From Planctomycetia bacterium (lineage in GTDB: Bacteria > Planctomycetota > Phycisphaerae > Phycisphaerales > SM1A02): a DNA stretch of 51,629 nucleotides. Position 1 is the first letter of the stretch. Every line of letters begins with the position of its first letter. Both the position numbers and the translations under genes were made by a program. The notes below the pieces were generated by a model, which was not told where the DNA came from, did no database searches, and saw only the letters and a list, made by a program, of their open reading frames with translations. Of the stretch, positions 1 through 34,780 are shown piece after piece. Where the stretch lies: contig SXUJ01000004.1 in the NCBI GenBank assembly GCA_005790565.1, positions 1 to 51,629 on the forward strand, in the 5' to 3' direction.

Positions 1-885
1 GAGGCGCTTCGGCGCATCGACGAGGAGATTGCGAGTGGGCGCTATCGATCTCCCAAGCACACGGCCATTTGGTGGGACTTCCCGACGAACACCATCCTTG
101 CACCTGTCACGAGTGACAAGGAGGTCGACCTTCTGAAGAAACTTGTCGAAGAGACATTCGATGTGCGCATTGCGCCCCGAAGCAGCGGAACGCTCGCCTA
201 TGACACGCTCGGCGATCGCGGATTGAGTGCGGCGTTTGATGATGCGCAACCGGAGGCGTTCTCGCTGCCGCCGCTCGATATTGACGGAGCGGTGGATCAA
301 GGACAACGCAAGAGTCGAACTCGACCCGATGTGCCGTGGGCGTCGACGGCGGGGGAGTCGAAGGACTTTCTTGGAAACACCTTCCTCTTCTGGCTCTGCT
401 GGCACGCAGAAGTGAAGGAAGGGCTGCTTGAGACCGAGGCAGGAGAGTTCGCGATCGTCATCGATCGCTCCATCGACCTCGAGTGCGCGTGGGGGTTGAG
501 CGGCAAGACGACGGTGCATGGAAGTGGTGCCCTGCGGCGAATGGAAACCGTGCAGGCACTGAAAGGCGGGAAGTGGCCGCGCAAGGTTGGGATGTCACTG
601 CATGCGTTCGGACAAACCTATGAGTTCGTGTTGCAGGGCGATCGCATGGAGATTGCCGCGCTGAAACTTCCGAAGCCCGAAGAGAAACCCCAGAGCCTTC
701 GACAGGCCATCGAGATGCGGCTCGACTTGCTCATCAGCTTTGAGCGCGCATTCAGTTCGCTCTACGCGGCGTTTGTCCGTGACCGATTTAGCCCCGCTTG
801 GCCAACGCGCCGGGGGCAGATTGACCAGTGGGTGACCGAACTCGGAAGCACGCGCAAGAGCGTGTCGTTCGTGGAAACGGCGTAG
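1..885 (+). CDS. RdgC-like protein, 5' end outside window
   Basis: The frame is open from base 1 to the stop at 885, about 294 codons, so the gene starts upstream; the GTG at 163 is probably internal. The visible N-terminal part (IWWDFPTNTILAPVTSDK, then LVEETFDV) resembles the segment of RdgC-family proteins in which a W-D strand is followed by S-x-K-x-V-D and L-x-x-x-T-F. A second stretch around residues 120-135 (FLGNTFLFWLCWHAE) resembles the FLG-x-EFL-x-WLW motif of long RdgC-like proteins. RdgC proteins bind DNA and modulate RecA-dependent recombination. The assignment is by remembered motif and is tentative. The gene converges on trpF with only 7 bases between the stops. Confidence 0.5.
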   Translation, partial: EALRRIDEEIASGRYRSPKHTAIWWDFPTNTILAPVTSDKEVDLLKKLVEETFDVRIAPRSSGTLAYDTLGDRGLSAAFDDAQPEAFSLPPLDIDGAVDQGQRKSRTRPDVPWASTAGESKDFLGNTFLFWLCWHAEVKEGLLETEAGEFAIVIDRSIDLECAWGLSGKTTVHGSGALRRMETVQALKGGKWPRKVGMSLHAFGQTYEFVLQGDRMEIAALKLPKPEEKPQSLRQAIEMRLDLLISFERAFSSLYAAFVRDRFSPAWPTRRGQIDQWVTELGSTRKSVSFVETA

Positions 886-892
886 TCGTCCG

Positions 893-1528
893 TCACGCCG
901 TTCGTGCGGCTTGGATGAATGCTCGTACGCGAGCTGGATCCTTGACGCCCTTGCTCGACTCGACGCCGCTGCTGACATCCACGCCATCCGGTCGGAGGAG
1001 GCGCACCGCCGCCGCAACATTTCCGGCGTCCAAGCCGCCCGCGAGGAGGATCGGTGTGCGAAGGCTTGCGCGCGACGCCGTGAGCGACTCGTGATCAAAG
1101 GTGTTGCCGCTCCCGCCTCGCGCGCCATCGAGTACGAGTCGCGCGAGACCGCACGCATCCCACTGCGCAACACTCGCCGGAGTTGCGGCGAATCCCTTCA
1201 TCACTCGAGAAAAACGAAATCGGAGGCAGAGTGCGTGAAGTTCTTCCGGCGTTTCGTCGCCATGGAACTGCACCGTGTCAAAGGCGCGAGCAGCCTCGAA
1301 CGACGACGCATCTACTCCCCGTGCGATGAGCGCAACCGACTCTGCTCTTCCCGCGAGCGATTCGCGAATGCTCTGCGCGACGGCGAGCGAAACCGCGCGC
1401 GGGCTTGAGGGAATGAGGACGACGCCGACGAGATCAGCGCCTGCGGCAACGGCCTCCTGCGCCATCGCGGCGGTGGTTACGCCGCAGATTTTCACGAGGA
1501 GATGGCGCGGCGCTGTGGGAGAAATCAA
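893..1528 (-). CDS. trpF: Phosphoribosylanthranilate isomerase
   Basis: Converts N-(5-phosphoribosyl)anthranilate to CdRP, the third step of tryptophan synthesis, in the cytoplasm. The 211-residue length fits the family's single TIM barrel. Visible family motifs are KICGVT near the N terminus (catalytic Cys), VQFHGDE in the middle (with catalytic Asp further on), LLAGGLDAGNV and DVSSGVESSKGVKD at the phosphate-binding end. The start ATG overlaps the stop of the upstream rhomboid gene in an ATGA arrangement, so the two are probably translationally coupled. No other trp gene lies in the window, so the pathway is scattered in this genome or continues elsewhere. Confidence 0.95.
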   Translation of the reverse strand: MISPTAPRHLLVKICGVTTAAMAQEAVAAGADLVGVVLIPSSPRAVSLAVAQSIRESLAGRAESVALIARGVDASSFEAARAFDTVQFHGDETPEELHALCLRFRFSRVMKGFAATPASVAQWDACGLARLVLDGARGGSGNTFDHESLTASRASLRTPILLAGGLDAGNVAAAVRLLRPDGVDVSSGVESSKGVKDPARVRAFIQAARTA

Positions 1529-2706
1529 CCGACTTCATCCATAAGGGAGTGGTAGTACCGTTGGCGATCGTTGGGGAGGAGGGACTCGCGAATATCCGCG
1601 AGTACGCCGCGGGCGCGGGTCGCATCCCCGAGCGTTCTTGCCAACACCGTTGCGAGAAGCAACTTCACTTCTTCGCTTCGTCGATCGTTTGGAAACTTCA
1701 CGATGAAAAGCGTGAGCGCATGAGCGCCCGTCGCGGGGTCGCCGTCGGAAACCAACTGGGTTGCGAGGTCGATTTGCACCTCCGCGCTGAGCACCGCATC
1801 CACGCGATCCGCCAGTAATCGACGATAGCGATCCGCGGCCCTGCTGAATTCGCGCTGCGAATGCAGAGTGGCGATCTCCGCGCGATACCCGCGTTCGGTT
1901 TCACTCTGTGTGGAAGCGGCACCCGTGGCGACTCGCGAGGGCGGAGACGCGGACGCACTTGGCGCACTCCACACGTTGCCATCTCGCATCGCGGCGCGAA
2001 ACGCTCGGCGCCGTTGCCATTGCGAAAGCGCATGGAGCAGATCCGTTTCGGTGCGCGGCAGTTGCTTCGCGTAGAGCAGCACCAAACCAAGGGCAATCCC
2101 GAACGCCATTCCTGCAAGGTGCGCGAAATTTCCAACCGACGACCGACGCACCGAAGTAATCTCGAGAAGCGCATCGACGAGATCAATGGCGACATAGAGC
2201 ATGATGAAGAACGATGCGGGGATTGCGACCACCCCAAGCCCAATCAGGCTGAGCCCGTAGATGTTTGCGCCTGGGAATAGGGCAATGAACAGACCCGCGA
2301 CGGTAGACACGCTTCCCGAAGCACCGATCACCGCGCCGTGGGAGACCAGGATTTGTGCGGCGCCTGCGATTGCACCACCAAGGAGATACGCAGCAAGGAA
2401 TCGCAGCCGTCCGAGGCGAGCTTCCGCCGCGAGTCCAAAGGTCCACAGAAAGAACATGTTCCCAAGCAGATGCCACATGCTGTTGGGGTCGTGGAGGAAT
2501 TGGTAGGTGATGAGATTCCACCACTCAAACGCGCGCCAGTCGAGCGCGAGGCGGTCGTAGAACTGTTCCAGGCTCCAGAGACCACTGCGCGCGCCCCAGA
2601 ACCCCGCCGCATACGCCGCGACGTTCAGGGCGAGGAGGACGGGAACAACGACGATTCGGCGGCGGTGGCGAGACGACAGTCGATCTGTTCCGAGTGGGAG
2701 AAACAC
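1525..2706 (-). CDS. Rhomboid family intramembrane serine protease
   Basis: A membrane protease that cleaves within or next to transmembrane helices. With the GTG start at 2706 the protein has 393 residues: a short basic N terminus, six or so membrane helices to about residue 215, and a soluble C-terminal region of about 170 residues with TPR-like helical character. The catalytic dyad is visible as GASGS (Ser about 131) and NFAHLAG (His about 196); WHLLGNMFFLW is the conserved H-x-x-x-N loop. A longer frame to 2820 exists, but its first 38 residues look non-coding, and a TACCCT element lies 7 bases before the GTG at 2706. It overlaps trpF by four bases. Confidence 0.88.
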   Translation of the reverse strand: MFLPLGTDRLSSRHRRRIVVVPVLLALNVAAYAAGFWGARSGLWSLEQFYDRLALDWRAFEWWNLITYQFLHDPNSMWHLLGNMFFLWTFGLAAEARLGRLRFLAAYLLGGAIAGAAQILVSHGAVIGASGSVSTVAGLFIALFPGANIYGLSLIGLGVVAIPASFFIMLYVAIDLVDALLEITSVRRSSVGNFAHLAGMAFGIALGLVLLYAKQLPRTETDLLHALSQWQRRRAFRAAMRDGNVWSAPSASASPPSRVATGAASTQSETERGYRAEIATLHSQREFSRAADRYRRLLADRVDAVLSAEVQIDLATQLVSDGDPATGAHALTLFIVKFPNDRRSEEVKLLLATVLARTLGDATRARGVLADIRESLLPNDRQRYYHSLMDEVG

Positions 2707-2713
2707 GCGCCGG

Positions 2714-2719
2714 AGGGTA
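2714..2719 (-). promoter_or_regulatory. Putative -10 element (TACCCT) of rhomboid-trpF
   Basis: TACCCT on the minus strand ends 7 bases before the GTG at 2706, so transcription would begin at or next to the start codon. No convincing -35 box is visible. It is one of a recurring set of TANNNT sites in the window. Confidence 0.4.
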
Positions 2720-2915
2720 CGCGCAGAGGTCTGACTTTGTACCCAGGCGACCCCCGAATCTGAGAAATGTACACACGGTCTGCACGGAGCTTTGCTAGGA
2801 TCGCGGTTCCGCCGAGACATGATCTCGGCTCCGAGTGAGGCGCGCCTTTCTCATCGAACGCAGGCCTCGTTTGGGCGATTGAGATTGAACGGAAGTTCGA
2901 CCCAGAGATTGAACC

Positions 2916-4085
2916 ATGTCGACCGCAACACCCGCCGCGCCTGCTCCTACTCCCTCCGCGCCTACCGCGATCTATGACAAGGGGCTCGCAAACACGATCG
3001 TCGCTGACACACAGATGTCGTTCATCGATGGCGGGAAGGGCGTGCTTGAGTATGTCGGGATTGACATCGACACGCTCGCCCGCAAGTCAACCTATGAGGA
3101 GACGGTTTACCTCCTCTGGAACACAAAGCTCCCAAGCAAGGCGGAACTTGATTCCTTGCGCAGTGCGCTGCAGTCGGAGTATGAGATTCCACAGGGCATA
3201 TACGAGATGATTCGCGGGATGCCGCGAGATGCGGTGCCGATGCACGCGCTCCGGACGCTCGTCTCTGCGCTCGCGCTCTACGACACCGAAGCCGACGCGG
3301 ACGGTATCGAAGCGAGTAAGCGTAAGGCACTCCGACTTGTCGCCAAGACACCAACACTGATTGCGAACTTCGATCGACACCGTTCAGGCAAGGACTTCGT
3401 CCGTCCGAATCCATGCTTTGATATCGCAACCAACTTTCTCTGGATGCTCAACGGGGAGAAGCCAACCGAGGCCATGTCGCGCGGTTTGGATATCTGCTTG
3501 ATTCTGCACGCGGACCACGGGCTGAATGCTTCAACCTTTGCGGCCCGAGTCACGATCGCGACACTTTCGGATCTCTATAGCGCCATGACGACCGCTGTGG
3601 GCACGCTGAAGGGGCCACTCCATGGCGGCGCGAATGAAGAAGTCATGGTGATGCTCGATGAAATCGGCTCGATGGACAAGGTCGATGGGTATGTCGCGGG
3701 CAAACTTGAGCGCAAGGAACTCATCATGGGCTTTGGGCATCGCGTCTATAAGGCGTACGACCCACGGGCGACCTATCTCAAGACTTTCGCCAAGCAGATC
3801 GCGACGGACACCGGCAATCTTCGACTGTTCGAGATGAGTCAGCGCATCGAGTCGCTTGTGCTTGATGCGAAGGCGGGCAAGGGGATCTTTCCCAATGTCG
3901 ACTTCTACAGCGCGACAACCTATCACTGCCTCGGCATCAAGACGGATCTTTTCACCTGCATGTTTGCGCTGAGCCGCATGTCAGGCTGGTGCGGTCACTG
4001 CATCGAACAGTTGCAAGACAACCGACTGATTCGCCCACAAGCGAAGTACACCGGACCACACGGTGTGGAATACACGGCACGCTAA
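2916..4085 (+). CDS. gltA: Citrate synthase
   Basis: Condenses acetyl-CoA and oxaloacetate to citrate at the entry of the TCA cycle. The 389-residue protein has the complete catalytic set: His236 in GPLHGGAN, His275 in FGHRVYK and Asp329 in NVDFYSA, with HADHGLNAST upstream. The length and lack of an N-terminal zinc domain fit the short Gram-positive/archaeal-type (CitZ-like) dimeric enzyme rather than the 430-residue NADH-inhibited E. coli type. The first 20 residues are Ala/Pro/Thr-rich and probably disordered. It is transcribed divergently from the rhomboid gene with about 200 bases between. No clear Shine-Dalgarno sequence is seen. Confidence 0.95.
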   Translation: MSTATPAAPAPTPSAPTAIYDKGLANTIVADTQMSFIDGGKGVLEYVGIDIDTLARKSTYEETVYLLWNTKLPSKAELDSLRSALQSEYEIPQGIYEMIRGMPRDAVPMHALRTLVSALALYDTEADADGIEASKRKALRLVAKTPTLIANFDRHRSGKDFVRPNPCFDIATNFLWMLNGEKPTEAMSRGLDICLILHADHGLNASTFAARVTIATLSDLYSAMTTAVGTLKGPLHGGANEEVMVMLDEIGSMDKVDGYVAGKLERKELIMGFGHRVYKAYDPRATYLKTFAKQIATDTGNLRLFEMSQRIESLVLDAKAGKGIFPNVDFYSATTYHCLGIKTDLFTCMFALSRMSGWCGHCIEQLQDNRLIRPQAKYTGPHGVEYTAR

Positions 4086-22026: not shown

Positions 22027-24090
22027 ATGGTGAATCCGTCTGCCGCCCCACTCCGGGCGCCGAGTGCTCCGACCGTTTCCTCCGCGTCGAGCGTGGCCTC
22101 CACCACGAATGGGACTGCTTCTCCGCGGTCGAGCCAATTGCGAGCGTCGATGGAGCGTGGATGGACGATCGATGATTCGGCGGATCTCTACAACTTGCGA
22201 GGCTGGGCGAAGGGATTCTTCGATGTGAACGCGCAAGGGCATGTCGTCGTGCGTCCCACGCGCGAGACGGGGCGTGAGATCGATCTGTTTGAGGTGGTGC
22301 AAGGATTGCGTGAGCGCGGATTGCGCACCCCCGCACTCTTGCACTTCAGCGACTTGCTCCGCACGCGCATGACCGACATGCACGACGCATTCGCGACAGC
22401 GATTCGCGACAATGGATACAAGGGTTCCTACAACGCGGTCTATCCAATCAAGGTGAATCAGCAGCGGCGTGTCGTGCATGATGTGCGCGAGTTCGGCATG
22501 CCGCTCGGATTCGGCATTGAGGTTGGCTCGAAACCAGAGCTCCTCGCGGTGATGGGATTGACGAGTGACTCTCCGGATCGATTGATCATCTGCAATGGCT
22601 TCAAGGAGGAGCGATACATCGAATTCACGATGCTCGCTGCGAAACTTGGTCGACGCATTATTCCAGTGATCGAGAACATCACGGAGCTTCGATTGATCGT
22701 GAAGTACGCCGAAATGCTCGAGATTCGGCCGCGCATTGGAGTGCGAGTCAATCTCTCCACGCAGGGCGCGGGCCGGTGGCGGCACAGCTCCGGCATCAAG
22801 GCAAAGTTTGGACTGAGCGTGAACGAAGTCCTTGAAGCGGTGGAATACCTTGGAACGAAGGGCATGAAGGATTGCCTTCAATTGCTCCATTGCCACATGG
22901 GCTCGCAGATCCATGACATTCGACAGGTCAATTCCGGCGTGAATGAACTCGCTCGCATCTACACCGAACTCGCGAAGATGGGGTGCAGCATGCAGTACCT
23001 CGATGTTGGTGGCGGATTAGGCATCGACTACGACGGGAGCCAGACCAACTTTGAGTTCTCAACGAATTACACGCTTGCGGAGTATGCGTCAAATGTCGTG
23101 TACAAGGTGATGAGCGTGTGTGACGAAGAGGGGGTTTCGCATCCGACGATCATTACGGAGAGTGGTCGCGCGATGGTCGCGCAGCAAAGCGTGCTCGTCT
23201 TCGATGTTCTTGGCGCCAACAGTGTCGATCGATTCAAGGCACCGACCTCGCTCGAGGGCGTACCCCTCGCCGACGGTGAGATTCCGCGACCGATCGTCGA
23301 TCTCTTTGAAGCGTTTAGCGCGGTGAGTGAGCGACGGTTACTTGAGTGCTATCACGATGCCCTCCAAGCCCGCGATGAGGCGATGAATCTCTTCAGCGTG
23401 GGATATCTCTCGCTCGAACATCGCGCGATCGTTGAGCGATTGTTCTGGGCGACTTGCGCGAAGATCCGCGACAAGGCGCGGGAAATGCCCGCCGTTCCCG
23501 AGGAACTTGGCGACATCGAGGACGCGACGAGCGACACCTACTTCTGCAATCTGTCGATCTTCCAGTCCCTGCCAGATATTTGGGCGATCAATCAGCTGTT
23601 CCCGATCATGCCGATCCATCGCTTGACCGAGCGTCCCACGCGCAAGGCCACCATCGCGGACATCACTTGCGATTCGGACGGCAAGATCGATCGGTTTGTC
23701 GACAACCACGATGTTCGAAAGTCCGTCGAAGTCCATTCGATTGAAAATGGCGATCAGTACTACCTCGGCGCGTTCCTGGTGGGCGCGTATCAAGAGACCC
23801 TTGGCGACCTGCACAACCTCTTCGGTGATACGCATGTGGCGCACATTCGACTCGACGAAAACGGGAACTGGTGGATTGACGAAACCGTCGAAGGCGATAG
23901 CGTTCGCGAAGTGCTCTCGTATGTGCAGTACGACGTGAATCGCCTTTCGCAGGCGATTCGACACGAATGCGAGCGCGCCGTTCGCGACCGCCACATGTCC
24001 GTCGCGGAATCCAATGCGCTCGTCCGCGCCTATGAATCGGGGCTCGCGGGATACACCTACCTCGAGACGGAAAACGGCGCGGCGATGTAG
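22027..24090 (+). CDS. speA: Biosynthetic arginine decarboxylase
   Basis: Decarboxylates arginine to agmatine, the first step of the arginine route to putrescine and spermidine; a PLP enzyme of the alanine-racemase fold. 687 residues with a Ser/Ala-rich 40-residue leader that is probably disordered, then WTIDDSADLYNLRGWAKGFF, the typical SpeA opening. YNAVYPIKVNQQ contains the PLP-binding Lys; HCHMGSQIHDIRQV, YLDVGGGLGIDYDG and ITESGRAMVAQQ are core motifs. DITCDSDGKIDRFVD belongs to the C-terminal domain. The ATG at residue 42 is an alternative start. No agmatine-using gene is adjacent. Confidence 0.95.
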   Translation: MVNPSAAPLRAPSAPTVSSASSVASTTNGTASPRSSQLRASMERGWTIDDSADLYNLRGWAKGFFDVNAQGHVVVRPTRETGREIDLFEVVQGLRERGLRTPALLHFSDLLRTRMTDMHDAFATAIRDNGYKGSYNAVYPIKVNQQRRVVHDVREFGMPLGFGIEVGSKPELLAVMGLTSDSPDRLIICNGFKEERYIEFTMLAAKLGRRIIPVIENITELRLIVKYAEMLEIRPRIGVRVNLSTQGAGRWRHSSGIKAKFGLSVNEVLEAVEYLGTKGMKDCLQLLHCHMGSQIHDIRQVNSGVNELARIYTELAKMGCSMQYLDVGGGLGIDYDGSQTNFEFSTNYTLAEYASNVVYKVMSVCDEEGVSHPTIITESGRAMVAQQSVLVFDVLGANSVDRFKAPTSLEGVPLADGEIPRPIVDLFEAFSAVSERRLLECYHDALQARDEAMNLFSVGYLSLEHRAIVERLFWATCAKIRDKAREMPAVPEELGDIEDATSDTYFCNLSIFQSLPDIWAINQLFPIMPIHRLTERPTRKATIADITCDSDGKIDRFVDNHDVRKSVEVHSIENGDQYYLGAFLVGAYQETLGDLHNLFGDTHVAHIRLDENGNWWIDETVEGDSVREVLSYVQYDVNRLSQAIRHECERAVRDRHMSVAESNALVRAYESGLAGYTYLETENGAAM

Positions 24091-24327: not shown

Positions 24328-25126
24328 ATGGCTGATACACAGGTCGTCCCATGGGGAAACTCCGCGGGCGGAAGTTTGGGAGTGGTTCCAGAACTCACGG
24401 ACATCGCTGAACTCCCCGCCGGAAACGCGTTTGTCATCGCGAAGCGGGGCGACGGTACGGTCTTTGGCCCTAGAGACAACTCGCTTGGCCAGTGCAACAT
24501 TCCTGTCGGCCTCACCAGCGTCGCCACAATCGCTGCGGGATACAGCCATTCCATCGCACTTCGCACAGACTCCAGCGTGGTCTGCGCGGGATCGAACAGT
24601 GATGGCGAATCCATCGTGCCGTCCATCCAAGGAGTGGTTGGCATCGCCGCGGGTGAGAACGTTAGCCTCGCGCTTCTCAGTAGCGCGACTCTCGCGGCTT
24701 GGGGCTACAACGGAAATGGGGAGTGCAACATCCCGATTGGACACACTGGTGTCAGTGCCATTGCTGCTGGAGGTCATCACGGGATCTCGCTGCGCGGCAA
24801 GGGAACTGTGCGGTGCTGGGGGCACAATCTCGAAGGTCAGTGTGCCGTGCCGACTGGTTTGCGCGGAGTGGTTGGCATTGCTCAGGAGTGCTCCATACGG
24901 CGGCGCTCAAGGGTGACGGAACCGTCGTCTGTTGGGGATGGAATGGCGATGGGTATCGCCATGTTCCGGCAGGAGCCTCTGGAGTTGGAGCAGTGACTGC
25001 AACGGCGATGGTATGGAAGACTCATGTGAGATTCTGCTTGATCCACTCAGTGACTGCGACGCGTATGGCATCCTCAACCGCGTCGACATCGCACTGCTCC
25101 TGAACAAATGGGGACCTCTGCCCTAA
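24328..25126 (+). pseudogene. RCC1-repeat secreted protein gene, frameshifted
   Basis: RCC1-like repeats are readable across three frames. Frame 1 (24328 to about 24880): VAIIAAGYSHS-type blades such as ATIAAGYSHSIALRTDSSVV and AIAAGGHHGISLRGKGTVRC. Near 24885 the repeats continue in another frame (GVLHTAALKGDGTVVCWGWN), and near 24990 in a third, which ends SDCNGDGMEDSCEI and DIALLLNKWGPLP before a stop at 25126. That tail is the dockerin-like module of this lineage. No signal peptide can be found before 24328. Two frameshifts plus a missing N terminus indicate a decayed gene, though assembly errors would look the same. Confidence 0.65.
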
Positions 25127-25166
25127 CGCTCCGCGCGTCGTTGCGCACCGAGTGCATTCTTGCCCG

Positions 25167-25172
25167 TACCCT
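25167..25172 (+). promoter_or_regulatory. Putative -10 element (TACCCT) of methyltransferase gene
   Basis: TACCCT ends 7 bases before the ATG at 25180, supporting that start over the upstream ATG at 25108. Confidence 0.38.
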
Positions 25173-25179
25173 TCGCGAG

Positions 25180-26400
25180 ATGGATTCGTGGCGTGATGTT
25201 TCAATCTGGCAATCGCTCTGCGATGAGAATGTCGCTGGCGCACCGCTTCTGCGTGTACTTGAGGCGGAATCGGAGTTCACGCCGGCCCTCATCGCAAGGC
25301 TGCGCCGACAGTTTGATTCATCGCGCATCTCCGCGGCCATTGAGTTGATCCAAGCGCGTCGGCGCGCGGTAGGAAAGCTGGATTTTGCAGCGCGGTGCAA
25401 CGCGGACTGCGGGGGAGTGGAGATGGCGAGTTCCTCTCGATGTGCGCTCTGGAAGGCCGAGCGCTTTCGGGACGCGCGATTGCGTCACTTGCCGATTCTC
25501 GATCTCTGCAGTGGCATGGGCTCGGACTTGAAGTCTCTCGTCGACCTCTGTGGCGAAGCGCGCGTCCTCGGTGTCGAGCATGACCCGCTTCGAGCGTGGA
25601 TGGCGCGCGGGAATGCGCGCACCCGGGTACGCGAGGCGGATGTGGCGAGTCAGGAGATTCAATCGATGCTGAGCGACTCGCTCGTGCACTGCGATCCTCC
25701 ACGCCGAGACCAGTCCGGTCGAGTGTGGAAGCGCGGCGCGCAGACCAGTGATGAGTTTGAACTTGCGTCCTTACTTGGATGGATGCGTCGGAGCAGCGGG
25801 GGTGCGCTCAAGCTTGGTCCTGGTATCGCGCGTGAATTGGTTCGTGCGGATGATGTCGAGTGCGAATTCGTCGAGGTGCACGGCACGATGGAGCAGTGCG
25901 TCGTGTGGACGGGCGCGCTCGCGACGCACGCGGGCGTGATGCGCGCGACTCGGTTAGGAAGGGAGTCGCATAGTCGTGTTGGCAGTCCGCGAGCTGTTCC
26001 GCAAGCGGAGGCACTCGGCGCATTCGTCTTCGAGCCTTGCGCCGCAATCGAGCGCGCTGGACTTCTGGGTGATCTCGCCGAGGAACTCCGCGCAGGTGAA
26101 ATCGCGCACGGTCTCGGATTACTCACCGCAGCACAGGCGTGTGATTCGCCATGGGCGGAGTGTTTCGAGATGGTGGGAGCAATCGCGCGATCACCGCAAG
26201 AAGCAGTCGCCAAGCGAAGCGCCGAGAGTGCACAGGAGGAGTTTCGCAGCGTGCGTGTGCGAGGGAAAGCACTCGACGCTTTCGGCGGAGTCGATCGCGT
26301 CACGAAATCTCTCGCATGCGAATCCGACGGCACACTCGTCCTTCATGCATGGCGAAGCGGCGCCAAGAGCGCGTGCGTCGTCACGCGCATCGTTGGATGA
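25180..26400 (+). CDS. SAM-dependent methyltransferase with THUMP-like C-terminal domain
   Basis: About 406 residues. The N-terminal helical part (SIWQSLCDENVAG and IAAIELIQARRRAVGKLDF region) precedes a class I SAM-binding fold: ILDLCSGMGSDLKSL is motif I, VLGVEHDPLRAWMARGNA is the acidic motif II region, and HCDPPRR resembles the DPARR motif of the THUMP-like methyltransferase group. The C-terminal third matches the THUMP-like domain in layout. Relatives are annotated as class I methyltransferases of unknown substrate, possibly RNA. The ATG at 25108 would overlap the decayed RCC1 gene; the ATG at 25180 better fits the domain boundary. Confidence 0.75.
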   Translation: MDSWRDVSIWQSLCDENVAGAPLLRVLEAESEFTPALIARLRRQFDSSRISAAIELIQARRRAVGKLDFAARCNADCGGVEMASSSRCALWKAERFRDARLRHLPILDLCSGMGSDLKSLVDLCGEARVLGVEHDPLRAWMARGNARTRVREADVASQEIQSMLSDSLVHCDPPRRDQSGRVWKRGAQTSDEFELASLLGWMRRSSGGALKLGPGIARELVRADDVECEFVEVHGTMEQCVVWTGALATHAGVMRATRLGRESHSRVGSPRAVPQAEALGAFVFEPCAAIERAGLLGDLAEELRAGEIAHGLGLLTAAQACDSPWAECFEMVGAIARSPQEAVAKRSAESAQEEFRSVRVRGKALDAFGGVDRVTKSLACESDGTLVLHAWRSGAKSACVVTRIVG

Positions 26401-26582: not shown

Positions 26583-29516
26583 TCAACCGCCGCTACAGAA
26601 GAAGAGCGCGGCTTCGACGCAATAGTCATCCCACGCATCCGAGCAGCAGGTTGGATCAACGCTGCAGACGAAGAGGCAACACGCACTATCGGCGCAGAAG
26701 GGCGTGAGATGCGCGGTATAGCAACCGCCCGTGCGCGGACTGCCACATCCAACGCCACCGCCACATGCGTCGCACACATCGCCAGCGATGCCCGCACAAG
26801 TGTTGTCCCACTCAATCGTGCAGCAGTAATCGTCGATCGCGCAGACATCCTTGCAACACGCCTTGTCGTTGCAATTCGCGTTGTCGTGCGGATAGCAGCA
26901 GGACCCTGCTTCTGGCGTGCCGCACTCAGGTTGCGGGCAGGCGCCATTGGGTCCGTTGCACTCCGGGTTGATCTTCGCTTCCATCGCGCAGAACTGATCC
27001 CACGCGACTTCGCAGCAGATCACATCGAGCAGGCAGACCGCAGCGCAGCACACGGCATCACTACACGCGGGGGTCTCCTTCGCTTCGCAGCACGGACCTG
27101 CGCAATCATCGCCGCAGTCAAGGTCGCACTGCGAGCATGCAGTCTGCGTCCTCGAGAGATCGACGCACGCCTGATCCCACTCCACCGTGCAGCAGTAGTC
27201 ATCCACCGCGCACACTGCGCCGCAGCAACTCGCGTCGTTGCAACTTGGTCGAGCGTGCACTTCGCAGCAGCTACCGCCGCCGATGTCGCCGCAGTCTGGC
27301 ACGCTTGCTGCGCAGCGGAGTAAGGCTTCGTCCGCGCAGAGTTGATCCCAGTCACTGAAGCAGCAGTACATGAATGCGGGATCGTCACAAACGGTCGTGC
27401 AGCACGCCGCGTCGGTGCAACCAGCGAAACCATGCGGCGTGAAGCACGAACCGGAAATCACGAGTCCGCAGCCGCCCTCGCAGGTTTCAATCGCGTCGCG
27501 GACGCAGCCCGTATCCCATTCTCCGCTGCAGCAATACGGGTCGTATCGACAGACCGCCGTGCAGCACACCGAGTCGTTGCAGTTGGGTTTCGTGTGCTCT
27601 TCGATGCAACTGCCTGCGCAGCTATCGCCGCAACCTGGCGTGGCACAGCAGTAGATGCGCGAGAGGGCAGCGCAGGATTCATCCCACGCAATCGTGCAGC
27701 AAGTTTCGTCGATCGAGCAGACGCCCGCACAGCAGGTTTCGTCATCGCATCCAGCATTGGCGTGCGCTTTGAAGCAATCACCAAAGCACGGGCACGGCCA
27801 GCTTGGGCGGGGCACGCAATGGAGTCCAGCGCTCGCTACGCAGTTCACATCCCAGCGCGCAGTGCAGCAAACGGGATCGAGCCGACAAACGATGTTGCAG
27901 CAAGTGGGATCATCGCAACCAGGAGTGGTATGGCCAACGCCGCACTTGCCGCTTCCAGGGCAACCGGCGACGGAGTAACAAATGCCTTGCGCGACATAGA
28001 CGCAGTTCGCGTCCCAGCCCAACTGGCAGCAGTACGGCTCAACCTGACAGACCGCAGTGCAGCAGAATTCATCGGCGCATCCTGGCTCTGGATGGACGAG
28101 GTATGGATCGCCTCGGTTGGGGCAGTTGGGCGGACGATCGCAGAAATTGGATGCGTTCGCCGCGCAGGTTTCATCCCACGCCCGTGAGCAGCAGGTTGGA
28201 TCGAAGTTGCAGATCAGTGAGCAGCAACCAGCGTCGGAGCATCCGGCGATTCGGCTCGGAACGCCACATGGGCGAGAGAGGAACGATCCGCAGGCGCTGC
28301 CGATTTCACACACGCTGTAGGCGTTCAATACGCAGAACATGTCCCACTGCAATTCGCAGCACCGTGGGTCGAAAGTGCACACGCTATCGCAGCACTCGGG
28401 GTCGTAGCAACTTGGTCCAAAGTGTGGATAGAAGCAACTCTCGCTCTCGATGTCGCCGCAACCATTGCAATGGGAGGCGGCGAGATCCGCGCAGCCGGCA
28501 TCCCATTCAAACGTGCAGCAGACGCTGTCGACGATGCAGACTTGTTCGCAGCAACCCGGATCGTCGCACCCTGGTGAGTTGTGCCGCACATAGCAACTGC
28601 CGTAGGCGTCGGAGCAGCTTGGGACGAAGATGGCGCACATCGTCTCCGCTTGACGAGCGCAGGTGTAGTCCCATTCAACCACGCAGCAGAAACCATCCAC
28701 TGCGCAAACATCGTTGCAGCACCGGAAGTCGTTGCAGCCGACGCTCGCATGCGCAGACTTGCAGGCGCCTGCGGTGGGATCGCCGCAGGTGCATTGCGTC
28801 AGCCCACAGTTGGAGTTTGCGGATTGAGCGCAATAGAAGTCCCATCGATCTTCGCAGCAGTACTGATCCGTGGCGCAAACGAGTTCGCAGCACGTCGCGT
28901 CACTGCAGTAGGGACTTGCGTGTTCGTAGCAGCAACTCCCTGCGTTGGGATTGCCGCAGTCTGGGCAGAGTTGATTTGCCCAATCGACGCAGATCTGATC
29001 CCAAGTACTCTCGCAGCAGTGCGCATCAACCGTGCAAACGGTCGAACAGCAGTTGGAGTCGCTGCAACCAGCCGCCTCATGCGGGATCTTGCAGCTGGGT
29101 GCGCCTGGGGCGCCGCAACCGACGCACATCGCATCCGCGAGATTGACGCAACTTTCGTCCCACGCCACGCTGCAGCAGCCAGGATCGGCGGCGCACACGA
29201 CCTCGCAACACGCGCCGTCACGGCATGAGCCGCTTCCGTGCGCGACGAAGCAACTCTCCGCAACTGCGCCGCACGCGGTGCAGAACTTCGATGCGAGAGA
29301 AACGCAGAGTTCATCCCACGCGACAGCGCAGCACATCGGTTCGACGGCGCAGACCGTCGCGCAGCAATTCGGATTTGAACATCCGGCTTCGATGATGCTT
29401 GCCTCGAAGCAACTGTGCGTTGCACTCGAGCAAACGGCCTGCCCGTTGGCGTTCGCGGTGAGCGCGAGTGCCGCAAGGAGGGTGGTGAGGAGGGAGAGCA
29501 GAGAATGAAATCGCAT
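26583..29516 (-). CDS. Secreted cysteine-rich protein with about 17 CC-x-WD repeats
   Basis: 977 residues from the ATG at 29516, which opens a signal peptide (MRFHSLLSLLTTLLAALALT, then ANANGQA). An ATG at 29561 overlaps the upstream metalloprotease stop (ATGA) and would add 15 residues. The rest is about 17 tandem units of roughly 50-60 residues. The consensus is C-x6-C-x3-H-x3-GC-x-D-x2-CC-x2-VC-x2-D-x2-CC-x3-WD-x2-C-x2-A-x4-C, about 10 cysteines per unit, probably disulfide-bonded outside the cell. Examples: CCSTVCTVDAHCCESTWDQI and CCKDVCAIDDYCCTIEWDNT. There is no enzymatic domain. I do not recognise a named family. Units differ at many non-Cys sites, so the array is old. Confidence 0.8.
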   Translation of the reverse strand: MRFHSLLSLLTTLLAALALTANANGQAVCSSATHSCFEASIIEAGCSNPNCCATVCAVEPMCCAVAWDELCVSLASKFCTACGAVAESCFVAHGSGSCRDGACCEVVCAADPGCCSVAWDESCVNLADAMCVGCGAPGAPSCKIPHEAAGCSDSNCCSTVCTVDAHCCESTWDQICVDWANQLCPDCGNPNAGSCCYEHASPYCSDATCCELVCATDQYCCEDRWDFYCAQSANSNCGLTQCTCGDPTAGACKSAHASVGCNDFRCCNDVCAVDGFCCVVEWDYTCARQAETMCAIFVPSCSDAYGSCYVRHNSPGCDDPGCCEQVCIVDSVCCTFEWDAGCADLAASHCNGCGDIESESCFYPHFGPSCYDPECCDSVCTFDPRCCELQWDMFCVLNAYSVCEIGSACGSFLSRPCGVPSRIAGCSDAGCCSLICNFDPTCCSRAWDETCAANASNFCDRPPNCPNRGDPYLVHPEPGCADEFCCTAVCQVEPYCCQLGWDANCVYVAQGICYSVAGCPGSGKCGVGHTTPGCDDPTCCNIVCRLDPVCCTARWDVNCVASAGLHCVPRPSWPCPCFGDCFKAHANAGCDDETCCAGVCSIDETCCTIAWDESCAALSRIYCCATPGCGDSCAGSCIEEHTKPNCNDSVCCTAVCRYDPYCCSGEWDTGCVRDAIETCEGGCGLVISGSCFTPHGFAGCTDAACCTTVCDDPAFMYCCFSDWDQLCADEALLRCAASVPDCGDIGGGSCCEVHARPSCNDASCCGAVCAVDDYCCTVEWDQACVDLSRTQTACSQCDLDCGDDCAGPCCEAKETPACSDAVCCAAVCLLDVICCEVAWDQFCAMEAKINPECNGPNGACPQPECGTPEAGSCCYPHDNANCNDKACCKDVCAIDDYCCTIEWDNTCAGIAGDVCDACGGGVGCGSPRTGGCYTAHLTPFCADSACCLFVCSVDPTCCSDAWDDYCVEAALFFCSGG
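26594..29440 (-). repeat. Array of about 17 cysteine-rich protein repeats
   Basis: Coding repeat of about 150-180 bases. It is diverged at DNA level and recognised from the encoded Cys/Trp-Asp spacing. Unit 13 (CDDPAFMYCC) has a small insertion and unit 9 lacks two N-terminal cysteines; the others keep the pattern. Confidence 0.8.
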
Positions 29517-29557
29517 GGAGAACTGCAAAGAGGAGAGAAGCGCATGCGCGCGAAAGG

Positions 29558-32311
29558 TCATGGTGTCGAGAGAATGCGCACAGCGCCCGCATCGAGGCCT
29601 GCATCGTTGTTGAACGGGATGCCAACGCCTGTCAGGCCGCTGATGGAGCCGAGGGAAAAGCCGAACTGATCGCCAGATTTGGGCACGATGGCTGTGTGCT
29701 CAGTCGAAAAGACCGGAACCTGCGAAGTCGCAAGTTTGCGGAAGGTGAAGACACTTCCCGCGTTCTGCCGGAGTATCCCGTCGACCGTCTGGTCGCGACC
29801 AGGCGCGCCGATGCTGATGACAAGGTCTGTGCCGCTGGAAGCAGCGTTGATGGAGACGCTCGAACCAAACGCGTCGCCTGCTTGCAGGTCCGGTCGAAAG
29901 ATCTTGTTTCGAATCGTCCAGGTGTTCGCGGCCGTTCGCTCCACGAGCCACGCCGCGCCCTTCCCACCGTCGGAGCCCGGTGCGCCGATCAAGAGCCAGT
30001 TGTCGTGAATGTCGACAGCTTCGCCGAATCGATCTCCGATCACTGCTTGTGAGGAGCCAATGGCGATCTTGCGTGGTCCGCCGAACCCCGTCGCGCCCGT
30101 TGTCGCTCGGTAGTAGGTCCACACCGCACCTCGGTCGCTTGAGGTTCCAGGTGCGCCGAAGACCACGAACGCGCGGGTTGGGGTTGACCCGATGGCCGGA
30201 CAGACGGGATCGACCGCCACGCTCCACCCGACTTCGTCGCCGAGCAGGGTTGTTGTCGAACCGCGCAGGTTTCCGCTTTGCACGATCGTGCCAGAATCAT
30301 TCTGGCGGAAGACATACATCGATCCCTTGCCCAAGTTCGAACCAGGGGCGCCGACGAAAACCTGATCCCCCGCGTCGGTGCCAATGCGTGTCATCGCAAC
30401 GGAGAAACCAAAGTAGGCATTGGTTTTGGTGGTATCTGGCGTGATCGCCTGCGGGATCACGCGATGTTTCTGCACCCAACCCGAGCCCGTTTCCTCGTAG
30501 GTATATGCGGCGCCTTCGTTCACCCAATTCGCGCCTGAAGTGGCCTGCGCGCGATACGCACCGGCCACCGCAAGATTTGCACTCGGCACGCTTCCCGCAC
30601 CCTGTCGCTTGAAGACGGCGACGCTGCTCCCGAACATGGCGTACTGTCGTGGATCGCTCGGTCGGAGGACCGCGAGGCCACCCCATGTGGTACCAACGCG
30701 CGCGTAGAGAATCGCCGCTCCCGCAGAGTCCATGGATCCGTCAGCGCCATCATCATGCGGCTCACCCGCGATCATGTATGGAAATGGGTCGGCGTTGCGC
30801 GCGTCCATCGAGACGCTCCAACCCAGCGTGTCGAGAATGTCTGGGTCGATCGAACCAACGACTGGACTTGTGATGGGGCACTCATCCGGAACGCTATTGC
30901 CGTCGGCATCAAGGGAAAGGCCGGTTGCGATGTCGCACGCATCAGGAATGCCGTTGCTGTTGCAGTCGGGAGCCGCGCCGGTGTCGAGTTCATATTGGTC
31001 GTCGATGCCGTTGGCATTGCAATCGCTTTGGATCCCGCCCGAGCAGCGGAACTGCGCAATCGACAGCGCGGTGAGGTTGATCGTGCGCGCGTTATTCGCG
31101 CCCACGCCAGGCGTATTTCCGGCGACACCCGTGGCTACACCGTCATAGACGACGGACGGATTGGAGAAGTGCGGGATGCGAACGCCAGGGTCGTACGCCA
31201 TCACGGTTCGCCAGAGAGATCCCGAGTTTCCGGTGAAGCGGAAACCGACGGAGTAGGGGTAGTAGCCGCCTGTTCCGCAACCTCCACCATCTCCTGGTGC
31301 GTGGCAGCACCCGAAGTTGTGTCCGACTTCGTGCGCGAGCGTGTAGCCGCCGAGGCAGCCGAGATTAGTTGCGCCGAAGCCGGAATTCGGGCTGTTATTG
31401 AAGAGGGCGGCCACGCCGCAAGCACCAGTTCCAGTGGAAACGATGTGCATGAGATCGGCGCCGAGGTCATTGCGCCGCGTGGCCATTCCCGCGTCGGAAC
31501 TGAGCCAATCAAGATCGCTGAACAAGCTCGCGGAACTCGAACGGTCGGTGCTCTCAAGTCCGACGACGCGCACGCGTGTGATGCACCGTGCATTCGACAG
31601 TGCCGTATTGAGATTCGCAATCGCCGCGGCGATTTCCGCCTCAGCGGCCGCGACGCTACCAGCCGCAGTGATGACATCGGTGTTGTAGAAGACGGCAATG
31701 TCGACGAGCCCCGCCGAATCAGCGCAACCGCCTGCGACGCCGCCGTCGGCGGGTTGCTCGTCATCCGTACTCAATCCATGGGCATCGTGCGTCGGATCGT
31801 GTGGCTTCTGGTGTCCACCTTGCCCAAACGGAACATCGAAGGCTCCACCGCAATCGCCAGTATCGGTGAACGGTTCCATGATCTGACTGTCGCGTCCATC
31901 CCCGTGATAGCGAACGCCTTGTTCGCCGCGATGCGCTTCGCCGGAAAGTTGTCCGTGCGTGAACACGATGGCCGCCGACGCAAGTTCACTCTCTTCACGG
32001 AACTGCCATTCGTAGATTCGACCATCGAGCAGCCACCGCTTCTCGACGAGCGTCATGCCAATCTCAACGCCATCGGCAAACGGAAACACCACGGCATCGC
32101 CAATCGCGAGGTCGCGGAACTCATCGACGCTCAACTCGGCAATGCCCTCGTTGCGGACGGCCGCGCGTTCGAAGGCGATCGCTTCGCGTTGCTTGACATG
32201 GTCGATTCGCTTTGGCTCGTCCGCCTCGACGGCGTTCGCGCCAACGAGTGAGAGCGCGACCATGAGTGCCGTGCAAGCAGTGAGTGCGATCGCGCGCGAG
32301 TGTCGACGCAT
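29558..32311 (-). CDS. Secreted zinc metalloprotease with calcium-repeat linker and FG-GAP-like C terminus
   Basis: 917 residues from the ATG at 32311, which begins a signal peptide (MRRHSRAIALTACTALMVAL, then SLVGANAVEA). A propeptide-like region runs to about residue 200. The catalytic domain (about 205-400) carries HEVGHNFGCCH, with zinc ligands His327, His331 and His337 and catalytic Glu328, of the reprolysin-like metzincin group. It is followed by DCNANGIDDQYEL, DCNSNGIPDACDI and DADGNSVPDEC calcium loops (about 435-480), then a 430-residue part with WSVSMD/FGSSVAV/GFSVAM repeats resembling FG-GAP propeller blades. The frame extends to 32434 without support. Its stop overlaps a possible start of the cysteine-rich gene, so the two are probably made together. 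Confidence 0.85.
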   Translation of the reverse strand: MRRHSRAIALTACTALMVALSLVGANAVEADEPKRIDHVKQREAIAFERAAVRNEGIAELSVDEFRDLAIGDAVVFPFADGVEIGMTLVEKRWLLDGRIYEWQFREESELASAAIVFTHGQLSGEAHRGEQGVRYHGDGRDSQIMEPFTDTGDCGGAFDVPFGQGGHQKPHDPTHDAHGLSTDDEQPADGGVAGGCADSAGLVDIAVFYNTDVITAAGSVAAAEAEIAAAIANLNTALSNARCITRVRVVGLESTDRSSSASLFSDLDWLSSDAGMATRRNDLGADLMHIVSTGTGACGVAALFNNSPNSGFGATNLGCLGGYTLAHEVGHNFGCCHAPGDGGGCGTGGYYPYSVGFRFTGNSGSLWRTVMAYDPGVRIPHFSNPSVVYDGVATGVAGNTPGVGANNARTINLTALSIAQFRCSGGIQSDCNANGIDDQYELDTGAAPDCNSNGIPDACDIATGLSLDADGNSVPDECPITSPVVGSIDPDILDTLGWSVSMDARNADPFPYMIAGEPHDDGADGSMDSAGAAILYARVGTTWGGLAVLRPSDPRQYAMFGSSVAVFKRQGAGSVPSANLAVAGAYRAQATSGANWVNEGAAYTYEETGSGWVQKHRVIPQAITPDTTKTNAYFGFSVAMTRIGTDAGDQVFVGAPGSNLGKGSMYVFRQNDSGTIVQSGNLRGSTTTLLGDEVGWSVAVDPVCPAIGSTPTRAFVVFGAPGTSSDRGAVWTYYRATTGATGFGGPRKIAIGSSQAVIGDRFGEAVDIHDNWLLIGAPGSDGGKGAAWLVERTAANTWTIRNKIFRPDLQAGDAFGSSVSINAASSGTDLVISIGAPGRDQTVDGILRQNAGSVFTFRKLATSQVPVFSTEHTAIVPKSGDQFGFSLGSISGLTGVGIPFNNDAGLDAGAVRILSTP

Positions 32312-32579
32312 GTTGATCTGGAGAGGGCGGCGGAGGGACATGGGAAGAAACTCAGGGTTCAAGCGGACAAGCGAGCAGCGGGGGAGATTGGCGCGCATTT
32401 CGAGGAGAGCACCGGCCAAGGGACACGGCCGCAAAGCCCGTTATTGTGCCCTAAATTCGGTCTCAACAGGATGCATCCAATCGGGGAGTTTTCCAAACGC
32501 GTACGGGGCGGAAAGGTCGTGATTTCTTGTGGTTGTGTGCGTGCATCCCTACGCTCAGTGGCGAGGGGAGTTCACCCAT

Positions 32580-33395
32580 TCATCGTGCATTCGCATTGCG
32601 CTGCGGCGACGCGTGCTTTGCGTCGACGACGCTTGCGCCCAATTCGCCAAACTTGCGTTCGCGTCGGGTGAAGTCGCGGATCGCAGCATGGAGGTCGCTT
32701 GCGGCGAAGTCTGGCCAGAGAACATCGGTCACATGGATTTCGGCGTAACTGATCTGCCAGAGCAAGAAGTTCGAAACGCGAAACGATCCCGCGGTTCGGA
32801 CGAGCAGATCCGGGTCAGGAATCCCAGCGGTGTAAAGGTGCTCTGCGATCGTGCGGTCGGTCACATCTTCGGCGCGCAACGATCCTTGTTCCACCTTGAA
32901 GGCAATCTGCTGCGCGGCGGCTGCAATTTCTGTCCGAGAACCGTAATTCATTGCCAAACACAGCGTCAACCCGCGCGACCGAGCGGTCGCTGCCTCGGTT
33001 TCATCAAGCTCATCAAGCACTCGAGGCGGAAGTCCCTCGCGCGATCCGATTCGCCGAAACCGAATGTCTTGCTCCACCATCAGCGGCCGTTCGAGCGCGA
33101 GAAACTCTGCGCAAAGCTCCATCAATCCCGCGACTTCCTCCTTCGGGCGCTTCCAGTTTTCGCTCGAAAACGAATAGAGGGTGAGGGCCTCGATTTTCAA
33201 TCGCACGCACTCCGTCACGATCTTGCGAACGGTGGCTGCGCCCTCGCGATGGCCGACGAGCCGGGGCATGCCCCGAGAGGTCGCCCAACGTCCATTTCCG
33301 TCCATGATCGCGGCAATGTGTCGCGGGAGATGGGTTCGCTGAAGGTCGTCAAGCGGCGCGGGGACAGGTTGGAGACTCGGCGTTCGATGCAGCAT
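32580..33395 (-). CDS. uppS: Polyprenyl (undecaprenyl) diphosphate synthase
   Basis: Makes the C55-type lipid carrier precursor used for cell-wall and surface glycan assembly by adding isoprene units to FPP in cis. 271 residues. Visible motifs: HIAAIMDGNGRWA (catalytic Asp), HREGAATVR, TLYSFSSENWKRP and NFLLWQISYAEIHVTDVLWPDF without the last residue (the Glu of SYAE ligates Mg). The conserved RTxGE motif reads RTAGSFRVSNF, so the Glu and following residue are changed. It lies 14 bases after purA on the same strand and is likely co-transcribed. The C-terminal 25 residues are unconserved. Confidence 0.92.
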   Translation of the reverse strand: MLHRTPSLQPVPAPLDDLQRTHLPRHIAAIMDGNGRWATSRGMPRLVGHREGAATVRKIVTECVRLKIEALTLYSFSSENWKRPKEEVAGLMELCAEFLALERPLMVEQDIRFRRIGSREGLPPRVLDELDETEAATARSRGLTLCLAMNYGSRTEIAAAAQQIAFKVEQGSLRAEDVTDRTIAEHLYTAGIPDPDLLVRTAGSFRVSNFLLWQISYAEIHVTDVLWPDFAASDLHAAIRDFTRRERKFGELGASVVDAKHASPQRNANAR

Positions 33396-33409: not shown

Positions 33410-34780
33410 TTAGCGTGCCGCGACCGGCACCTTACGCGCTGATTCGAGCGTTTGCGTTCGCTCAGGTCCGACCGAGACGAGTTCGATGGGCGTGCCCGTG
33501 AACTGCTCAATGAACGCCAGATACTGCTGTGCTTCGTCCGGGAGGTCCGCGCGATCATGGCAATCCGTGAGTTCGCGACTCCATCCGGCGAGCGTCTCGT
33601 ACACGGGGGTGAACTCTGACATGCGCTCCGCATCCGGAACGAACCGATCGGTGACGGTGCCGTCCGCTCTGCGATATCCAACGCACACTTTCAGTTCATC
33701 AAATCCACTCAGCACATCGAGGAGCGTGCACGCGATCGCGTCGGCGCCGCACACCATGGTGGAGTAGCGCACTGCGACAAGGTCGAGCCATCCGCAGCGT
33801 CGTGCTCGACCGGTTGTGGTTCCGTACTCGCGACCGCGCGTGCGAATTCGGTCGCCGGTGGCGTCGAGGAGTTCCGTCACGAATGGACCGCCTCCCACTC
33901 GCGTCGAATACGCCTTCATGATGCCGTAGACCTTGCCGATCGCTCGGCCCGGAACGCCTGATCCTGAGGGAATTCCGAGCGTTGAGCAGTTGGAGCTTGT
34001 GACAAACGGGAACGTGCCGTGGTCAATGTCGAGAAGGCAGGCATTCGCGCCCTCAAACAGCACGCTCCGCCCCTCGCGCATCGCATCGTGCAGGAGATAC
34101 ACGGTGTCAGTGATGTGCGGCCGGAGGCGTTCTCCCGCCGCTGAAAATCGCGCGGCGAGTTCGCGTGGAACGAGTGGCGCGACCTCGCCAGGGTTTGTTC
34201 CGATCGTCGCGCCAAGTGCTTGGAGTTCCGCCATCCGCATGCTGCAAATGGTGTCGAGTTTGCGCTCGAGCAGGTCGCGGTCGAGGAGGTCGCCCATTCG
34301 AATTGCGGTCGATCGCCGAATCTTGTCTGCGTAGGCGGGTCCGATGCCCCGTCGGGTGGTGCCGATCGAGCCGCCATTTCCCTTCGTCCCAGCTCGCTTG
34401 GCAAGCAGGTCTTCGAGTGCTGCGTCCTGATCCTTGTGATAGGGCATGACGACATGCGCACGATCGGAAATGCGCAGATTGCTTCCAACCTCGACACCGC
34501 GCTTGCGAAGTCCTTCGATCTCTTCGAGAATCTTCTCGGGATCAACAACCACGCCATTGCCAACGACATTCGTTTTTCCGTGACTCAAGATGCCACTGGG
34601 AATGAGATGGAGCGCGTATCGCTCGGTACCGACTTGCACCGTGTGGCCGGCATTCGCGCCCCCGTTGTAGCGAACGATGCAGTCATAGCGGGCGGTGAGG
34701 AGGTCGACGATTTTGCCCTTCCCCTCATCCCCCCATTGGAGTCCGACAACAGCAGCGTGAGGGGTAGGCAATGAAGGCAT
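33410..34780 (-). CDS. purA: Adenylosuccinate synthetase
   Basis: Joins IMP and aspartate using GTP, the first step from IMP to AMP. 456 residues. Seen: VVGLQWGDEGKGKIVDLLT (GTP loop with the catalytic Asp and the IMP site), NGGANAGHTV with catalytic His, GTTRRGIGPAYADK, LFEGANACLLDIDHGTFPFV and EYGTTTGRARRCGWLDLVAV. The protein is slightly longer than the usual 430 because of a C-terminal extension (TPIELVSVGPERTQTL onward). guaB lies at the other end of the window, so both IMP branches are represented. A TACAAT element on the minus strand lies 47 bases upstream. Confidence 0.95.
   Translation of the reverse strand: MPSLPTPHAAVVGLQWGDEGKGKIVDLLTARYDCIVRYNGGANAGHTVQVGTERYALHLIPSGILSHGKTNVVGNGVVVDPEKILEEIEGLRKRGVEVGSNLRISDRAHVVMPYHKDQDAALEDLLAKRAGTKGNGGSIGTTRRGIGPAYADKIRRSTAIRMGDLLDRDLLERKLDTICSMRMAELQALGATIGTNPGEVAPLVPRELAARFSAAGERLRPHITDTVYLLHDAMREGRSVLFEGANACLLDIDHGTFPFVTSSNCSTLGIPSGSGVPGRAIGKVYGIMKAYSTRVGGGPFVTELLDATGDRIRTRGREYGTTTGRARRCGWLDLVAVRYSTMVCGADAIACTLLDVLSGFDELKVCVGYRRADGTVTDRFVPDAERMSEFTPVYETLAGWSRELTDCHDRADLPDEAQQYLAFIEQFTGTPIELVSVGPERTQTLESARKVPVAAR

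Follow-up and report, generated by a model that had tools for sequence, protein, structure and literature searches.

We analyzed a 51,629-nucleotide stretch of the genome of a Planctomycetia bacterium (GCA_005790565.1, contig SXUJ01000004.1, positions 1 to 51,629 of the forward strand; hereafter, the window), which carries on the minus strand a gene for a protein with an apparent signal peptide and 17 tandem cysteine (Cys)-rich repeats, denoted CC-WD units. Read from the first ATG, the open reading frame (ORF) spans 26583-29561 and encodes 992 amino acids (aa), including 181 Cys. An earlier note, made from the sequence alone, had placed the gene at 26583-29516; the gene stands, but position 29516 is an internal ATG, 15 codons inside the first one, and is also a possible start. 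Secretion, as suggested in that note, is supported by the apparent signal peptide, recognized by eye in the translation. The features of the gene, with the units delineated by profile matches, are listed below.

26583-29561, minus strand: long-array gene, 992 aa, 17 CC-WD units (ORF, translation, unit count; orthologs 85-90% identical in the three metagenome-assembled genomes (MAGs) named below)
29436-29561, minus strand: signal peptide region, 42 aa from the first ATG (27 aa from the ATG at 29516), with a putative cleavage site ahead of VCSS, recognized in the translation by eye
29271-29429, minus strand: unit 1
29115-29264, minus strand: unit 2
28956-29114, minus strand: unit 3
28803-28955, minus strand: unit 4, with an extra Cys, C1'
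28632-28784, minus strand: unit 5
28458-28613, minus strand: unit 6
28305-28457, minus strand: unit 7 (the AlphaFold model covers 28305-28460)
28134-28289, minus strand: unit 8
27972-28124, minus strand: unit 9, without C1, as are the corresponding units of L069-L071 and L080
27813-27965, minus strand: unit 10
27642-27794, minus strand: unit 11
27474-27629, minus strand: unit 12
27306-27461, minus strand: unit 13, with an insertion between C5 and C6
27126-27290, minus strand: unit 14, with an extra C1'
26955-27113, minus strand: unit 15, with an extra C1'
26763-26921, minus strand: unit 16, with an extra C1'
26589-26744, minus strand: unit 17, the match stopping one residue short of the C-terminus

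The regular array of about 17 units described previously is borne out: all 17 units match the pattern C-x(3,4)-CC-x2-[VI]-C-x(4,8)-CC-x3-WD-x2-C, which was not matched in any of 200 shuffles of the residues of the same protein. The signature originally given as CC-x-WD is, in its correct form, CC-x3-WD. The units follow one another at a pitch of 52-64 residues and share 26-50% pairwise identity (mean 40%; 27% outside the shared Cys). Tandem Repeats Finder detected nothing in the array but one short row of 2.1 copies of 18 bp. Together with the low identity, this marks the repeats as old at the DNA level, and no recent unit duplication is visible. The 950-aa part following the putative signal peptide contains 19.1% Cys, has an isoelectric point (pI) of 4.05 and includes 31 Lys and Arg residues. 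Promoter and terminator scans yielded results no better than those for shuffled sequences.

The array gene is real and under selection. Its orthologs in Baikal-deep (SIAK01000031; L069), F1-140 (SXUI01000063; L070) and ZH-13MAY13-plancto70 (QWPV01000067; L071) encode arrays 85-90% identical to that of the window, the last of these 85%, and retain every aligned Cys (168/168, 181/181 and 159/159, respectively). The ratios of nonsynonymous to synonymous substitution rates (dN/dS) are 0.054, 0.032 and 0.067 for L069, L070 and L071, respectively, values that are rough because dS is near saturation (1.5-1.9). These results agree with the earlier proposal that selection keeps the Cys, and close relatives have the array rather than lacking it. 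In our search of the GTDB family, the window's genus was represented by only three further genomes, G393, G394 and G395.

Ten framework Cys can be assigned to each unit, C0 located before the unit and C1 to C9 within it. Analysis of the joint loss of Cys in 402 distinct units (three of the 405 were left out as identical or lacking the anchor column) revealed highly significant pairs in Fisher tests, which ignore phylogeny: C1'-tail (p = 4e-46), C0-C4 (3.5e-13), C1-C2 (7.7e-10), C5-C7 (9.3e-10) and C3-C9 (1.2e-8). After single-linkage clustering of the 402 units into 283 groups, the median p values were 2.7e-30, 2.1e-10, 5.7e-8, 3.8e-9 and 2e-7, respectively. The predicted disulfide map accordingly comprises C0-C4, C1-C2, C3-C9, C5-C7 and an optional C1'-tail bond; a C6-C8 bond is predicted by elimination only, C6 being missing from one unit and C8 from none. 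The suggestion that the units are disulfide-bonded is thus supported by the loss of Cys in pairs, also after clustering. The map is specific enough for direct checking by mass spectrometry.

Prediction of the structure of one to three units, proposed in the earlier note, succeeded for one unit and not for three. The AlphaFold2 model of unit 7, built with 61 aligned units, has high confidence scores (predicted local distance difference test (pLDDT) 94.6; predicted template modeling score (pTM) 0.76) and consists of helices 21-30, 33-36 and 41-50, a three-helix mini-domain. Three Asp residues, retained in 161, 165 and 195 of the 198 units compared, correspond to residues 20, 31 and 40 of this model and lie at or just before helix starts, so that the conserved Asp in C-x-D, D-P and W-D probably start or cap the predicted helices. 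Support for both the domain and its disulfides is good, and we are highly confident that the unit is an extracellular disulfide-stabilized module.

These observations bear on the metal-rich fibre that was initially offered as the alternative to disulfide bonding. A metal-binding or metal-storing protein akin to metallothioneins is in line with the Cys content of 19% and the very acidic chain. However, the gain and loss of Cys in specific pairs, the conserved Trp-Asp, the position of the conserved Asp at the beginnings of the predicted helices or immediately ahead of them, the apparent signal peptide, which implies an oxidizing compartment, and the compact helical fold predicted without metal all disfavor such a fibre, and we consider it very improbable.

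Searches with the whole protein, with its 17 units and with 44 diverse units, among them the profile search proposed in the earlier note, identified no described family. The whole array protein matched 0 Pfam and 0 NCBIfam families at E<=1; 44 diverse units matched four Pfam families at E<=10, each in 1 of the 44 and with a best E-value of 0.054, and one PHROGs family at E<=0.1, in 1 of the 44 at 0.012, none of them credible. There were no matches among PDB sequences in a phmmer search (E<=10), and comparison of the unit profiles with PDB yielded only matches to 16-17 residues of an aldolase (E 0.56-1.2), which are not credible either. Nothing credible in Pfam, NCBIfam, PHROGs or PDB accordingly backs the conjecture that this is a known but obscure planctomycete repeat. 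Likewise, a Foldseek search of PDB with the unit 7 model returned 0 matches at E<=10, a search in which relatives of a 52-residue model can be missed, and a search of BFVD returned five weak matches (best E 2.7). Phage GenBank records did not match a two-unit query in tblastn, and plasmids did not match the whole array protein. Resemblances to Plexin PSI, ShKT, granulin and phospholipase A2, which we considered, are supported by no Pfam match; the Cys spacing of granulins differs from that of the CC-WD unit. Among the papers listed for planctomycete or Phycisphaerae cysteine-rich repeats, CL500-3, dockerin and planctosome in the open-access literature, none describes the unit in its title or the opening of its abstract. 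The unit adds to uncultured planctomycetes an extracellular domain that is missing from the searched family libraries, and a single genome can contain as many as 120 copies of it.

The number of copies in a tandem array usually drifts. Among the complete long arrays that we examined, in contrast, the number of units is nearly fixed and their order partly fixed. Of 60 stretches searched for long arrays, 30 had none, many of the stretches having been fetched for other unit genes. The complete arrays, that of the window included, number 28, with 17 units in 20 of them, 18 in five, and 16, 19 and 20 in one each; because the stretches were picked for high-scoring matches, these 28 are not a random sample. 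The cut arrays L086, L170 and L172 were left out of this count, as were L069-L071, which are the same records as L172, L171 and L170, and L173, which has only two units. The count depends to some extent on the profile (L135 has 17 units with A2 and 18 with A6). Long arrays were found in 14 genera, seven of which have 17 units and the rest 16-20. Such constancy is unusual and makes a length-dependent role testable. With respect to order, the longest in-order chains of best matches to the window comprised 17 units in L070, 14 in L080, 14 in L130 and 13 in L131, compared with null maxima of 9-10, so that 4 of the 12 long arrays tested exceeded the null. In eight aligned 17-unit arrays from six genera, the per-unit Cys identity to the window is 0.89-1.00, position-specific extra Cys included, whereas the non-Cys identity is only 0.28-0.40.

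The nearly fixed number of units would be unexpected for a peptide cassette, that is, a polyprotein precursor cut into 17 Cys-rich peptides acting on other organisms. Short variable linkers and stable mini-domains are compatible with such a precursor. Granulins consist of tandem, secreted, disulfide-stapled small domains, and so do animal secreted cysteine-rich repeat proteins (SCREPs; PMC6262176). The array itself displays the general features of secreted disulfide-rich repeat proteins, namely, an apparent signal peptide, tandem units and paired Cys, but differs from SCREPs and granulins in being bacterial, in its nearly fixed unit number and in having no Pfam match at E<=1. Given, in addition, the paucity of basic processing residues (31 Lys and Arg in 950), we regard processing into peptides as extremely unlikely.

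Another alternative is a multivalent receptor or adhesin in which each unit is a ligand-binding module, providing avidity for peptides, glycans or particles. Low-density lipoprotein (LDL)-receptor class A and scavenger-receptor modules are ligand-binding units of this kind. The CC-WD module is combined with galactose-binding-like and dockerin domains in other proteins and is present in a viral-contig protein, both of which would suit a receptor, and some lake planctomycete lineages are reported as particle colonizers (PMC6461901). The low non-Cys identity of corresponding units does not suggest 17 conserved binding sites, however, and a receptor role appears unlikely, if worth considering.

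Conservation extends to the Cys framework, to the W-D pair and the residues where helices start and, in the long arrays, to the number of units, with the other residues drifting, and this fits a structural rod of set length better than 17 binding sites, a protease inhibitor or a metal store; the retention of 16-20 units suggests a structural rod of set length. We therefore favor, with about evenly balanced confidence, a structural rod outside the cell, formed by an exported protein that is stapled by disulfides and nearly fixed in length. The gene would encode an exported protein, the mature part of which would comprise 17 copies of a three-helix disulfide-stapled mini-domain of about 53 residues. 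Once exported, the units would fold as their Cys are oxidized and, by stacking, would form a rod of set length that is rigid, resists proteases and is acidic (pI 4.05). Such a rod would serve as a structural or spacer element, either on the surface of the cell or in the surrounding matrix. Smaller relatives carry the module in proteins with dockerin tails and in a protease.

Several results weigh against a rod of this kind or against parts of it. In eight arrays (L086, L090, L092 and L132-L136), the in-order chain is 5-10 units long, not above the null maximum of 8-10. The AlphaFold model of three units is poor (pLDDT 68.8, lowest at the linkers), so that the proposed rigidity and stacking are inferred and do not come from the model. 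No anchor was recognized on the array protein in the Pfam scan. Long arrays are not essential to the family, although some of its genomes are incomplete: 93 of the 181 have too few unit matches (below 16) to show one. Searches of the window's genome for DSBA, Thioredoxin_4 and VKOR gave no match. With regard to the disulfide map, C3 and C4 covary as well (p = 4.5e-7; 3.5e-6 clustered), which the map does not predict; discordant units number 51 for C1'-tail, 27 for C0-C4, 17 for C3-C9 and 16 for C1-C2; C5-C7 rests on four units (two in L092 and one each in L076 and L083), that is, on few independent events; and in four units of the 198-unit set, the CC pair is replaced by a Cys elsewhere.

The genes upstream of the array on the same strand are the following.

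29558-32434, minus strand: metzincin (Reprolysin_3/4/5) with FG-GAP_2 repeats, the stop codon of which overlaps the first ATG of the array gene (ATGA) (library scans, ORF coordinates)
32580-33395, minus strand: uppS homolog, a frequent neighbor of long arrays (family scans, locus comparison)
33410-34780, minus strand: purA homolog (family scans, locus comparison)

The ATGA overlap of the two genes, along with the presence of a metzincin homolog in 9 of 30 long-array stretches and the fusion of units to Peptidase_S8 elsewhere, raises the possibility that the array acts on the co-encoded reprolysin-type metzincin as an inhibitor or chaperone, or serves it as a substrate-presenting arm. Within the fetched stretches, however, metzincin homologs are confined to genera g1, g2 and g282, leaving 11 of the 14 genera without one, whereas a uppS homolog is found in 24 of the 30 long-array loci and in 17 of the 21 metzincin-free stretches. 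Furthermore, the array is under stronger constraint than the metzincin. A role as a partner of the protease thus seems improbable to us. On the other side of the array, the window contains an adjoining ORF of 430 aa (25108-26400, plus strand) that has homologs in L070, L080 and L131 and no Pfam or NCBIfam family, and an ORF with RCC1_2 repeats (PF13540; 24127-24996, plus strand) between the ORFs 22027-24090 and 25108-26400.

Of the 34 unit matches (E<=0.001) in the window's genome, 17 fall in the array and the other 17 are spread over nine further ORFs. Dockerin_1 was detected above the cut-off in three of these nine, below it in three and not at all in three; one contains GBD_T9SS_assoc (T9SS, type IX secretion system) above and PPC below the cut-off, and one contains Peptidase_S8 above the cut-off. 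These partners place the unit in a context of export, as does a DsbB homolog in the same genome (L311, 1195-1881, minus strand), which adjoins a divergent, putatively secreted ORF (1952-3031, plus strand) with two WCGWC thioredoxin-like stretches recognized by eye. The DsbB homolog and the double-thioredoxin ORF are a candidate oxidation system. Two of the nine unit ORFs, L072 4679-6361 and L079 1-1725, both on the minus strand, lie at the ends of contigs C97 and C166 and both hold LEAGIPYRLAIGGF; they are probably one gene split across contigs. Across the family, a home-made pattern, crude in that it finds 4 of the genome's nine other unit ORFs, detected dockerin-like C-termini in 33 of 48 shorter unit proteins with a complete C-terminus, compared with 12 of 655 unit-free mechanical ORFs and none of the 30 long arrays.

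The dockerin context invites comparison with the planctosome model proposed for Nemodlikiaceae, the CL500-3 lake clade. ZH-13MAY13-plancto70 is discussed among the Phycisphaerae MAGs of that study in a manner that implies membership (Andrei et al. 2019, PMC6461901), so the window's genome probably belongs to the same clade. Dockerin-tailed proteins and M12B reprolysin occur in both, and the array is associated with the reprolysin through the adjacent overlapping gene and in the 9 of 30 stretches. Unlike in the planctosome model, the window's genome (estimated to be 100% complete) has 0 matches to Pfam cohesin (PF00963; the control search found it in 1 of 14 genomes) and no dockerin was found on the array protein in the Pfam scan; the words "cysteine" and "disulfide" appear 0 times in the main text of the article.

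All profile searches for units were performed within the phylum of the window's genome. In the GTDB family of this genome, counting the best 37 matches per genome, units were detected in 165 of 181 genomes and 43 of 45 genera, with matches no better than 1e-6 in 13 of the 165; at least 16 matches were found in 88 genomes, 1-15 in 77 and none in 16. In eight unit-rich genomes for which all matches were counted, there are 39-120 units each. A draw of 298 genomes from the class gave 53 with matches, 19 in the window's family and 34 in other families (f111, 24; f102, 6; f113, 2; f110, 1; f114, 1), and none in the same order outside the window's family. Restriction of the unit to one GTDB family is thus rejected, given the five further families. 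In draws from the phylum, 10 of 392 genomes matched with the 17-unit profile and 9 of 392 with the 44-unit profile, all from the window's family except for one weak match of 23 residues (G317) that was obtained with the former profile and disappeared with the latter; the family numbers suggest that these draws did not include the five families. Nine loci outside the family were read, and all nine contain units, one of them with W[ST] instead of WD. One protein from another family of the class (L162, 3424-9039, minus strand) has five units with wide, even spacing and without WD-x2-C; in the three that were inspected, WT or WS replaces WD.

Possible relatives of the unit were detected in viral contigs. 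The strict DNA form of the unit core was present in one IMG/VR contig (L190), where a 1212-aa ORF (237-3875, plus strand) with no Pfam or PHROGs family contains, close to the C-terminus, a single clear CC-WD unit (48.7 bits). The looser form D-P-x-CC-x3-WD-x2-C was found in at least 120 IMG/VR stretches; 79 of the 80 that were analyzed (L191-L270) encode a similar domain, and in L242 the motif is in a different, proline-rich setting. The viral domain shares with the unit the core DPYCC-x3-WD-x2-C but lacks C4 and C5, has one motif copy per ORF and is accompanied by a T9SS-type tail: Por_Secre_tail was detected in all four proteins scanned, in one below the cut-off. In the three viral proteins that were inspected, repeats of the GCxDPxAxNY...DGSC type precede the DPYCC-x3-WD domain. 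Profile comparison of the viral domain, aligned without L190 and L216, with the unit (hhalign, 96.8%, E 2.3e-10, single template) makes homology likely but unproven, because the viral loci were chosen by the motif that drives this score. It would be unusual for a phage to encode a protein that its host secretes. The CC-WD unit might found a new disulfide-rich three-helix superfamily of Phycisphaerae and of phages with T9SS-type tails, with the 17-unit array as a molecular ruler, a surface rod kept at the same length across the genera of an aquatic family; we advance this combined proposal tentatively and consider it rather doubtful. Among the viral loci, the motif match in L216 seems spurious, and in L226 a portal-protein gene lies close to the gene of the CC-WD-like protein.

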